A model generated the notes under the pieces. It was not told the DNA's origin. It saw nothing but the letters and a program-made list of their open reading frames with translations, and did no database searches. From Clostridiales bacterium (lineage in GTDB: Bacteria; Bacillota; Clostridia; Christensenellales; CAG-138), in NCBI GenBank assembly GCA_918244965.1, contig CAKJYC010000012.1:1-64000 (forward strand): a stretch of 64,000 nucleotides of DNA, written 5' to 3'. The position numbers and the translations under genes are program-made. Each line of letters opens with the position of its first letter. The stretch's first letter is position 1. Below, one piece after another: positions 26,107 through 62,901 of the stretch.

Positions 26107-26176
26107 GGGAATACCTCCTGAAAAAACTGGAATCATGCGCCGTAGGCGCAAATGTCACTGCCGCAGGCATATCGCA

Positions 26177-28845: not shown

Positions 28846-29535
28846 TTACAAGCCTCTTAACGCCGTGTTCGGTACGGTTTTTCGGACAGCAGCGGCATAC
28901 TGCTCCATGCATTCGCGGCTCGGCGCATGGAAGTTCTCGTAAACGACCGTATCGCGGTCCGTAAACGCTTGCAGGTAATACGCCTTCGCCCCCGCGATCC
29001 ACTCGGAAATCGCGATAAAATCGGACATATCGTGCAATTCGTCGACGACGGTGGTGCGGAATTCGTAGTCGATCCCGCTGTGCATCAGAAGCGAAATGCT
29101 CTCGAAAACCGGTGCAAGATCAATTGTGTCCAGACCGCATATATGCGCATAATGATGCGGGCCGCCCTTGACGTCCATCGCAACATAGTCGACAAGGCCC
29201 TCGTCAAGCAGCGCTTTAAGCCGGTCCGGGTGCATGCCGTTGGTGTCGAGCTTGACCGGATACCCCAGCGCCCTGATCCTGCGAAGCAGGTCCGGGAGAT
29301 CCTTGCGCAGCGTCGGCTCGCCGCCGGTGATCGCCACGCCGTCCAAAAGCCCCTGACGCTTTTTCAAAAACGCCAGCAGCTCCGCGTCGTCCATGACGGG
29401 CTTTGCCGTGCCGTCGATCAGCTCGGCGTTGTGGCAGAACGGGCAGCGAAGGTCGCACCCGCCCAAAAATACCGTGCACGCCACGCGTCCCGGAAAGTCC
29501 AGAAGCGTCATTTTCTGTAATCCGTGAATGTCCAT
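28846..29535 (-). CDS. nrdG: Anaerobic ribonucleotide reductase-activating protein (radical SAM)
   Basis: MDIHGLQKMTLLDFPGRVACTVFLGGCDLRCPFCHNAELI; start trimmed from ORF 28846..29679. Confidence 0.9.
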   Translation of the reverse strand: MDIHGLQKMTLLDFPGRVACTVFLGGCDLRCPFCHNAELIDGTAKPVMDDAELLAFLKKRQGLLDGVAITGGEPTLRKDLPDLLRRIRALGYPVKLDTNGMHPDRLKALLDEGLVDYVAMDVKGGPHHYAHICGLDTIDLAPVFESISLLMHSGIDYEFRTTVVDELHDMSDFIAISEWIAGAKAYYLQAFTDRDTVVYENFHAPSRECMEQYAAAVRKTVPNTALRGL

Positions 29536-29549
29536 ACCAAATCCTTTCG

Positions 29550-29643
29550 TGTCCCGAAGGGACATATCGTTCCGCAGGAATATCGCGTTCCGCAGGGAAC
29601 ATATCGCGCCGAAGGCATATCGCTCCCCGGAGGGGAATATCGC
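29550..29643. repeat. Array of five small inverted repeats separated by ATATCG(C)
   Basis: gtcccGAAgggac-atatcg / ttccGCAggaa-tatcgc / gttccGCAGggaac-atatcgc / gccGAAggc-atatcgc / tccccGGAgggga-atatcgc. Confidence 0.9.
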
Positions 29644-29679
29644 CGAGGTTTTTGACGATATGCGGCTTACGCCGCACAA

Positions 29680-30621
29680 CTATACTGCCGCCAAAATGTG
29701 CAGGTTGCGGATCCCGCCGTCCGCGATCGAATCGTTGACCGAATACGCGTGCTTTTCGAGATCGCCGCAGATCGCCTTGGTGAGGTTTTGCGTAGTCAGC
29801 TCGTCGATCACGTCCGCCGCGACGTCCTCGATCATGCCGCGCTTCGCGTCTGCGGCGTCCGGTCCGTTGTCGGTCGTCAGAAGGACCTCAAGCGTTTCGG
29901 CGATCAGCGCGAGCTTCGGCAGCGCGCGCATCGCGCGGAAGCGCCACTTGTAATACGGCATGTACGCGCCGTTGAGCAGAAACGCCGCGTGCATCGCCGC
30001 GTTCGCAAACTCCGCGACCGCAAGCTGCGCCGCGCCGGTCTCGCCGTGCGCAAGACAGCGCGGATAGTTGTACTGCCCCGCTTGCGCCATCAGCAGCAGA
30101 CTGCCCGCAAGCTTCTTTTTCCGAACGTCCTCCGGAAAGCGCGAAAGCTCCTCGCGGATGCGCGTGACCTCGCCGCGCCCGTCGAAAAACAGCCTGCCGT
30201 TCGTCGCTTCGAGCAGCGCCTGCTCCGGCACGGTCAGCCATTGCGAAACCGTGAGAACGCCGTCCGCCGCGCCGACCTTCTCCTGAAAGAACTCCGCCGT
30301 GCGCAAAACGCCGTGCCGCGCCCCGCCGACCGGCGCGAGCGGACTGCGGCGCAGCCCCAGGAATTCCTTCGGCAGCTTGCTGTACGCGCGTTCGAGCTGA
30401 AACGCCGTTTTGCGGTCCACTGTGTCCTCGTCCGGCAGCAGGATCAGAAAGCCCGGCTCAAAATCGTGGTCGCGGCTCATGTCGTCGTCAAAGCCGAGAC
30501 ACTCCGAGCCGCCGCCGAACAGTCCGACTGCAAGCTGCGGCAGAAGGTCCGGAAACTGTTCCGTCAGCATCGGTTTTCCGCATTCCAGCCAGTAGCGTTC
30601 GGAAAGCTCAAGTCCGTTCAT
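29680..30621 (-). CDS. DUF4037 domain-containing (nucleotidyltransferase-like) protein
   Basis: GGGSECLGFDDDMSRDHDFEPGFLILLPDED; start trimmed from ORF 29680..30891. Confidence 0.75.
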   Translation of the reverse strand: MNGLELSERYWLECGKPMLTEQFPDLLPQLAVGLFGGGSECLGFDDDMSRDHDFEPGFLILLPDEDTVDRKTAFQLERAYSKLPKEFLGLRRSPLAPVGGARHGVLRTAEFFQEKVGAADGVLTVSQWLTVPEQALLEATNGRLFFDGRGEVTRIREELSRFPEDVRKKKLAGSLLLMAQAGQYNYPRCLAHGETGAAQLAVAEFANAAMHAAFLLNGAYMPYYKWRFRAMRALPKLALIAETLEVLLTTDNGPDAADAKRGMIEDVAADVIDELTTQNLTKAICGDLEKHAYSVNDSIADGGIRNLHILAAV

Positions 30622-44844: not shown

Positions 44845-44864
44845 ATATCGCGCCGCAGAGGCGC
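44845..44864. repeat. ATATCGC plus small inverted repeat (related to 29550 array)
   Basis: ATATCGCGCCGCAGAGGCGC. Confidence 0.55.
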
Positions 44865-61803: not shown

Positions 61804-62901
61804 ATGCGCAATACATTCGGAAAACTGAGCGTGATCCTTGCGGCGCTGGTTCTGCTGTTCGCCGCAGGCTTTTTCACGGTCTCGCTGATCCTCAGAGACG
61901 CCGAGATGATCGGAGGCCTCTTCAAAAAGCCGGAGGTCCGGCAGGAGGTCACGGAACGGACCGGCATCGACAAGCCCGCCGAGATGGAAAATGCGACCGT
62001 GGTGCTGCTTGAATACATGCGCGGCGAGCGCGCGAACATCAAGGTCTCCGCACGCGTCAACGGCGCGGAGCTCCCGGAGGTGTTCTACCACGAGAAGGAG
62101 ATCGTGCACATGGCCGAGGTCCAGTCGCTTTGGCTCGGCCTTGAAGCGTTCGCCAAGTACGGCGCGATCGGCGCGGCGGCGCTGCTGCTGTTCGGATTCT
62201 TCCTGATCGAGCACGGCAAGCGGCGGGCGGTGCTGTCCTCCGGCCTGTTCTGGGCCTGCGGGATTTTCGGCGGCGTGCTTGCGTTCATGGGCGCGTGGGC
62301 GCTGCTCGACTTTTCGAGCTTCTGGACCGTGTTCCATTTCATCATCTTTCCGGGTTCGCTGTTCCAGTATCTGTCCGCCGGCGCAAGCGTGCAGGCCATG
62401 AACGAGCTCAACTGGGTGTTGGATTCCGACAGCATCATGGTAAACCTGCTGACGCCGATCTTCCCGCCGCTGGTGCTGCGCTGCGCGATCTGCATTCTGC
62501 TGGAGATCGCCGCAGCAACGCTGATCGCCGTGTTTATTCGCTTTGCGTGGCGCAAGCAGGGCAAGCCGTCGCCGATCGCCGACGTCGTTGTGATCGAACG
62601 CGACGAAAACGAACCGGTCCCGATCCAGGGACCCGACCTCGTGCTTGCGCATAAGCTGCGCAACGCGCCGGTCAGCAAGCGCGAAGAGATCTTGGAAAAG
62701 GCCAAGAACGGCGAGCCGCTGGACGATGAGCCGGAAATGCCTTCCCCTCAAGAGGAGGGCGGCTCGCAAGGTGAGACGGATGAGGCGCCGTTGCCGGAAA
62801 ACCCGGACGATATGTCCTTGACGGGACACGATATTTCTGCAGTGCAATCTGCAGAGGGCGACGACCCCGGCGCCCCGTCGGAGGAACCCCATGAACTATG
62901 A
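61804..62901 (+). CDS. TIGR01906/DUF1461-like integral membrane protein
   Basis: Multi-TM; VFYHEKEIVHMAEVQSL; FHFIIFPGSLFQ. Confidence 0.75.
   Translation: MRNTFGKLSVILAALVLLFAAGFFTVSLILRDAEMIGGLFKKPEVRQEVTERTGIDKPAEMENATVVLLEYMRGERANIKVSARVNGAELPEVFYHEKEIVHMAEVQSLWLGLEAFAKYGAIGAAALLLFGFFLIEHGKRRAVLSSGLFWACGIFGGVLAFMGAWALLDFSSFWTVFHFIIFPGSLFQYLSAGASVQAMNELNWVLDSDSIMVNLLTPIFPPLVLRCAICILLEIAAATLIAVFIRFAWRKQGKPSPIADVVVIERDENEPVPIQGPDLVLAHKLRNAPVSKREEILEKAKNGEPLDDEPEMPSPQEEGGSQGETDEAPLPENPDDMSLTGHDISAVQSAEGDDPGAPSEEPHEL

Follow-up and report, generated by a model that had tools for sequence, protein, structure and literature searches.

What is a chain of small hairpins doing between two bacterial genes? 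The window analysed here, a stretch of 64,000 nucleotides from a Clostridiales bacterium, carries on its minus strand the gene for a DUF4037 protein (PF13228; 29680..30621) as the upstream cistron and nrdG, which encodes the anaerobic RNR activase (TIGR02495; 28849..29535), as the downstream cistron; nrdD and a thioredoxin-reductase-like gene come next. The original prediction placed an array of mini-hairpins in the leader of nrdG. The array does adjoin nrdG, whose ribosome-binding site AAAGGA abuts unit 1, but its setting is an intercistronic gap running from the DUF4037 stop codon at 29680, which borders the array, to the nrdG ATG at 29535. Five units and one inverted unit (29551-29676) fill this gap.

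Read on the plus strand, the array opens with the hairpin GTCCC-GAA-GGGAC (29551..29563) and its linker ATATCG (29564-29569). It continues with TTCC-GCA-GGAA (29570..29580; ATATCGC at 29580-29586), GTTCC-GCAG-GGAAC (29587..29600; ATATCGC at 29601-29607), GCC-GAA-GGC (29608..29616; ATATCGC at 29617-29623) and TCCCC-GGA-GGGGA (29624..29636; ATATCGC at 29637-29643). The five predicted units with their ATATCG(C) linkers are real and can be read directly in the sequence; the loop of unit 3, predicted as GCA, has four nucleotides, GCAG. The sixth element, TGCGGC-TTAC-GCCGCA at 29661-29676, is present as well, and the label of variant given to it does not hold: it is a further unit, inverted, which on the minus strand reads TGCGGC-GTAA-GCCGCA and then TATCG (29656..29676), with the GNNA loop GTAA and the same linker. 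Five successive ATATCG motifs, each at most 24 nt from the next, compare with a maximum of two in 60 Markov windows of 64 kb, so the array is not due to chance. A CRISPR was rejected, as had been predicted: the constant part is only the linker of 6-7 nt, the segments between linkers are self-complementary, and there are no identical repeats of 23-50 bp.

The pairing of the arms was scored at mirrored positions in segments chosen by their flanking linkers alone, which avoids circularity. In the cleanest length classes the arms of such segments pair at 0.91-0.97, and in the noisier ones at 0.75-0.89; over 300 permutations the highest value in any class was 0.74, reached in the shortest class (18 segments). 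The claim that arms vary while pairing is kept is thus borne out. A pair of orthologous arrays (L052 in genome G011, L053 in G010) illustrates it, with ATCCC/GGGAT in one and ATCCT/AGGAT in the other, both sides having changed. Most units have near-perfect stems, and among the 18 units of locus L111 there are runs of near-identical ones. The further claim, that selection acts on structure rather than on sequence, is no more than half right: the stems do vary and remain paired, but the conserved parts are the sequences of linker and loop, and mutation by template switching could also keep the stems paired.

Across the family the unit is a perfect stem of 3-8 bp closed by a C-G pair, a GNA or GNNA loop, and a linker of 7 nt. 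The closing C-G pair is found in 238 of 277 distinct near-symmetric hairpins, GNA in 105 of 163 three-nucleotide loops and GNNA in 79 of 114 four-nucleotide loops, in support of the predicted C-GNA-G apex. The third base of the four-nucleotide loops is a pyrimidine in 44 cases and a purine in 35, so these are not RNA-type GNRA loops. C-GNA-G and C-GNNA-G are stable DNA loops, described as in vitro motifs and not as a genomic family, and both match the loop rule of the ATATCGC strand by sequence. UNCG tetraloops on the mRNA strand were considered and rejected, as the arms are symmetric about a triloop. Single mismatches on the linker strand are G.T in 28 cases and A.C in 10 (p=0.005, an optimistic value because the sequences are related), an asymmetry suggesting that it is the ATATCGC strand on which pairs are preserved; a strand-biased C-to-T change would give one of the same sign. 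Nearest-neighbour energies show no strand difference for triloops, and in two four-nucleotide test units they favour the GNNA strand by about 0.9 kcal (RNA) or 0.4 kcal (DNA), so that energy alone does not decide between the strands.

The nrdG array is not isolated. Two relatives in the window, both foreseen, are a second array of two hairpins, GCGCC-GTA-GGCGC and TGCC-GCA-GGCA with TATCGC (26136..26175, plus strand), between nrdD and the thioredoxin-reductase-like gene, and a single unit in which the ATATCGC linker is followed by GCGCC-GCAGA-GGCGC (44845..44864, plus strand). Elsewhere in the window, at 62745-62860, a repeat fragment (CCTTCCCCTCAAGAGGAGGG.. and two hairpin pieces of the GCGATAT type) lies in frame at the 3' end of a membrane-protein gene, and from the reading frame the C-terminal tail of this 365-aa protein seems to be partly encoded by repeat DNA. 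The genome of origin (2.33 Mb) has 56 matches to the pattern CGNAG-N2-7-ATATCGC against 4 for the reversed control pattern, together with 13-15 matches at E<=0.001 to the Rfam family Gut-1 (RF01706), the statistics for this genome coming from fetched stretches of which many were picked for holding arrays. The two checks attached to the original prediction, copies beyond these loci and covariation of the arms, thus returned many copies and arms that covary. The same pattern is enriched to varying degrees in congeners; beyond the family, it mostly gives about as many matches as its control.

What the original prediction overlooked is the kinship with Gut-1, along with the empty and filled orthologous sites described below. 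On the minus strand the window array (29575..29645) aligns full length to RF01706, model positions 1-77, with three hairpins and 7-nt linkers in the order of the model; the score of 34.1 bits (E=0.0035 in 30 kb) lies below the gathering score of 50, whereas other copies in the same genome reach 60-64 bits. Three short hairpins and a 7-nt linker, G(U/C)GA(A/U)AU, are common to both, and the linker is GTGAAAT in Gut-1 and GCGATAT in the window. Gut-1 matches occur in 27 of 61 genomes in the relatives set, a genome of 1.3 Mb having the most with 52, and in at least 47 of 246 genomes of the class; an Oscillospiraceae MAG (L104) is one named carrier with a match above threshold. Among 14 control genomes E. 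coli alone matched, below the cut-off. Exact two-unit matches in GTDB come nearly all from Clostridia MAGs, many of them from rumen or cecum. The linker is ATATCGC in the window and ATATCAC, ATTTCAC, ATATAAC or ATTCA elsewhere, and arrays of mixed linkers (L016 and L067, for example) join the ATATCGC and ATATCAC types. These comparisons show that the nrdG array is one copy of a dispersed family of tandem mini-hairpins of Clostridia, of which RF01706 is a subset. Gut-1 was listed in 2010 by Weinberg et al. as a likely noncoding RNA, from human-gut sequences only (PMC2864571), and our literature search found no paper that reinterprets it; we read the window array as a multi-copy DNA repeat, and the multi-copy dispersal of Gut-1 matches argues against a single noncoding RNA gene. 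The surprise is that Gut-1 falls within such a repeat, and that the repeat follows rules of loop, linker and strand.

The DUF4037-nrdG junction itself bears on how arrays arise. Eleven congeners have no array there, just the stop codon and a ribosome-binding site; the three gaps measured among them are of 6-8 bp. Nine genomes (G000, G003, G006, G010, G011, G014, G016, G021 and G022), in contrast, have hairpin arrays or repeat mosaics of 141-770 bp where measured. Empty and filled orthologous sites of this kind are one mark of a mobile element. The last units, GCC-GNA-GGC and TCCCC-GNA-GGGGA, are common to G000, G006 and G010; unit 4 of the window recurs at the orthologous sites of G006 and G010 and unit 5 at those of G006, G010 and G022. 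At the same place G021 has arrays with a TGAAT linker. From the empty and filled sites, the history is most simply read as a gain of arrays that later diversified, with a linker type that depends on the species, the ancestral state being judged by the number of empty congeners and not by a tree. No clear target-site duplication was found at nrdG; TCA stands at both borders in some species only, and the ends are blurred by later insertions.

Placement is directional. For 71 arrays from four genomes, with genes called by a simple hexamer method, the distance to a stop codon is often no more than about 100 nt. When each array is compared with the closest 3' gene end beside it, the ATATCGC strand runs against the gene in 45 cases and with it in 11 (p=5e-6, an optimistic value, given that arrays close together are not independent and neither are homologous copies). 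Arrays of G024 and G035 are often found straight after a terminator hairpin followed by CAACNAAAT, and several lie behind tRNA genes; at L170, L183 and L187 of these genomes, arrays of the ATTTCAC type adjoin terminator hairpins whose head is CAACNAAAT, and several of these arrays lie 3' of tRNA-like genes. In the genome of origin, a GATTCTCC..GGAGAATC hairpin that carries a T-run comes after some arrays in the mRNA sense. This conserved palindrome, GATTCTCC-N3-4-GGAGAATC, ends many arrays (L052, L053, L054, L060, L016 and L024), and some copies have the T-run and look like terminators. A second palindromic repeat of about 110 bp (ACACCTCATCCGTCACTCC..CTTCTCCTCAAGGAGAAGG..GGTGATGAGGTG) is interleaved with arrays of the genome of origin (L024 1-480 and 2360-2480, on contig C93; L009 170-300, on contig C10), and several of its copies are near contig ends.

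We propose that the family is a dispersed, REP-like repeat of DNA that is recognised, or maintained, in the form of single-stranded hairpins, a reading that we judge about evenly balanced between right and wrong. REPs tagged with GTAG or CGTC are small palindromes found outside genes in many copies per genome; alternative residues in their stems are complementary, and each hairpin has a constant tag next to it (PMC3733652). The arrays share the many short extragenic palindromes, the alternative stem residues and the constant sequence beside the hairpin; they differ in having linkers (ATATCGC, ATATCAC, ATTTCAC and others) in place of the GTAG/CGTC tag, in forming long head-to-tail arrays with strongly varying stems, and in having no linked RAYT gene. 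The intergenic hairpin repeats of fungal and sponge mitochondria are likewise sometimes tandem, with complementary stem substitutions and a copy number that differs between related species (PMC2800124), but their stems are conserved and they lack a constant 7-nt linker and a G..A loop rule.

The likeness to REPs raises the question of a REP-associated Y1 (HUH) transposase as the mobilising agent, which the original prediction had suggested looking for. Two Y1_Tnp proteins in the genome of origin (at L122, contig C91, and L123, contig C92) speak for it, one at a contig start with 64 bits and the other a weak relative of 172 aa that is seen in several congeners, as does a weak rank correlation between copy number and Y1 count (rho 0.26, p=0.04); the association of Y1 presence with Gut-1 presence is not significant (Fisher p=0.18). 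However, no arrays were found near either of these two loci, and no array of at least two units was found in 20 fetched loci, nearly all of them Y1 loci, a result that holds for the commoner linker types: a near-identical version of the detector recovers known arrays but overlooks those with divergent linkers, such as the ATTTCAC arrays of L141. In a profile search of 61 genomes for Y1_Tnp (PF01797), four genomes that are 94-100% complete had no match, yet they hold 52 (G033), 29 (G035), 15 (G051) and 13 (G039) Gut-1 matches, so an HUH transposase is not required. With the characteristic tetranucleotide tag absent too, and no RAYT flanked by repeats, a classical REP system is highly improbable. 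A reverse transcriptase is not required either, as PF00078 has no match in G033, G024 and G039; G033, with about 52 copies, has neither enzyme. Phage and plasmid records gave no match, and viral carriage was set aside after the lone IMG/VR pattern match (L115), which has no hairpin array, was judged from its sequence to be due to chance.

That no mobilising protein was found counts against the REP-like reading, and the direction of the arrays and their nearness to stop codons would suit a role of the other strand as RNA as well. On that account the Gut-1 strand would act as a hairpin chain in the 3' UTR or between cistrons, where it blocks 3'-to-5' exonucleases or tunes nrdG against DUF4037, or as a free noncoding RNA, the role originally put forward for Gut-1. 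In its favour are the placement of arrays right after stop codons, the Gut-1 strand being in the mRNA sense (45:11), the GATTCTCC..GGAGAATC hairpin with its T-run that follows some arrays of the genome of origin, and the intercistronic nrdG site, and because placement is directional we retain it as a tentative alternative, though an unlikely one. It sits poorly with the mRNA strand having fewer G.U pairs (10) than the other strand has G.T pairs (28), with arrays of G024 and G035 that lie beyond an intrinsic terminator in the mRNA sense, and with the 11 congeners that have no array at nrdG at all. To our knowledge, the UNC and UNNC loops that the mRNA strand would form have no special stability, which we also count against it. 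Still less probable, in our judgement, is that nothing recognises the units: slippage and recombination would expand the arrays, and template switching during replication (quasipalindrome correction) would keep the arms complementary. Template switching has been proposed, from reconstructed sequence histories, to create and repair hairpin stems and to yield changes that look compensatory (PMC8794818), and the near-perfect stems of most units and the runs of near-identical stems among the 18 units of L111 are in keeping with it. What it leaves unexplained are the conserved linkers and G..A loops amid variable stems, the strand asymmetries and the directional placement.

In the REP-like reading that we prefer, the recognised form would be the hairpin of the ATATCGC strand as single-stranded DNA, that is, the template strand of the neighbouring gene. 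The strand asymmetries in these sequences favour a DNA hairpin on that strand. As linker and G..A loop are conserved and the stems are free, recognition would be by loop and flank, on one strand; as the ATATCGC strand is in most cases the antisense of the mRNA next to it, a single-stranded DNA form is favoured. Units would be copied, expanded or kept at the single-stranded hairpin step, by a factor acting in trans or by hairpin-dependent strand switching tied to replication. The nrdG copy would then be chiefly selfish, an insertion of the REP-like kind. A by-product may be that its transcript folds into a row of small hairpins between DUF4037 and nrdG, which could shield the upstream message and separate the expression of the two genes. 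A bolder version, which we consider speculative and on balance doubtful, is that the arrays are the substrate of an as yet undescribed system with neither HUH transposase nor reverse transcriptase that recognises single-stranded mini-hairpins by their C-GN(N)A-G loop and 7-nt linker, not by their stem, and places them directionally behind stop codons or terminators across Clostridia, the linker type co-evolving with the recogniser from species to species.

Were the repeat reading correct, the RNA family Gut-1 would need to be re-read as a widespread DNA repeat, with consequences for the annotation of many Clostridia genomes. The family also lends itself to testing whether stems that covary reflect selection on structure or template-switch mutation, since its small stems are many, its loops and linkers are fixed, and its orthologous sites are both empty and filled. 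Several array copies sit at contig ends, so the family is a possible cause of some assembly breaks. A strong raiA RNA motif (192 bits) was also noted at L090 4527-4734, in an array-carrying Clostridiales MAG.
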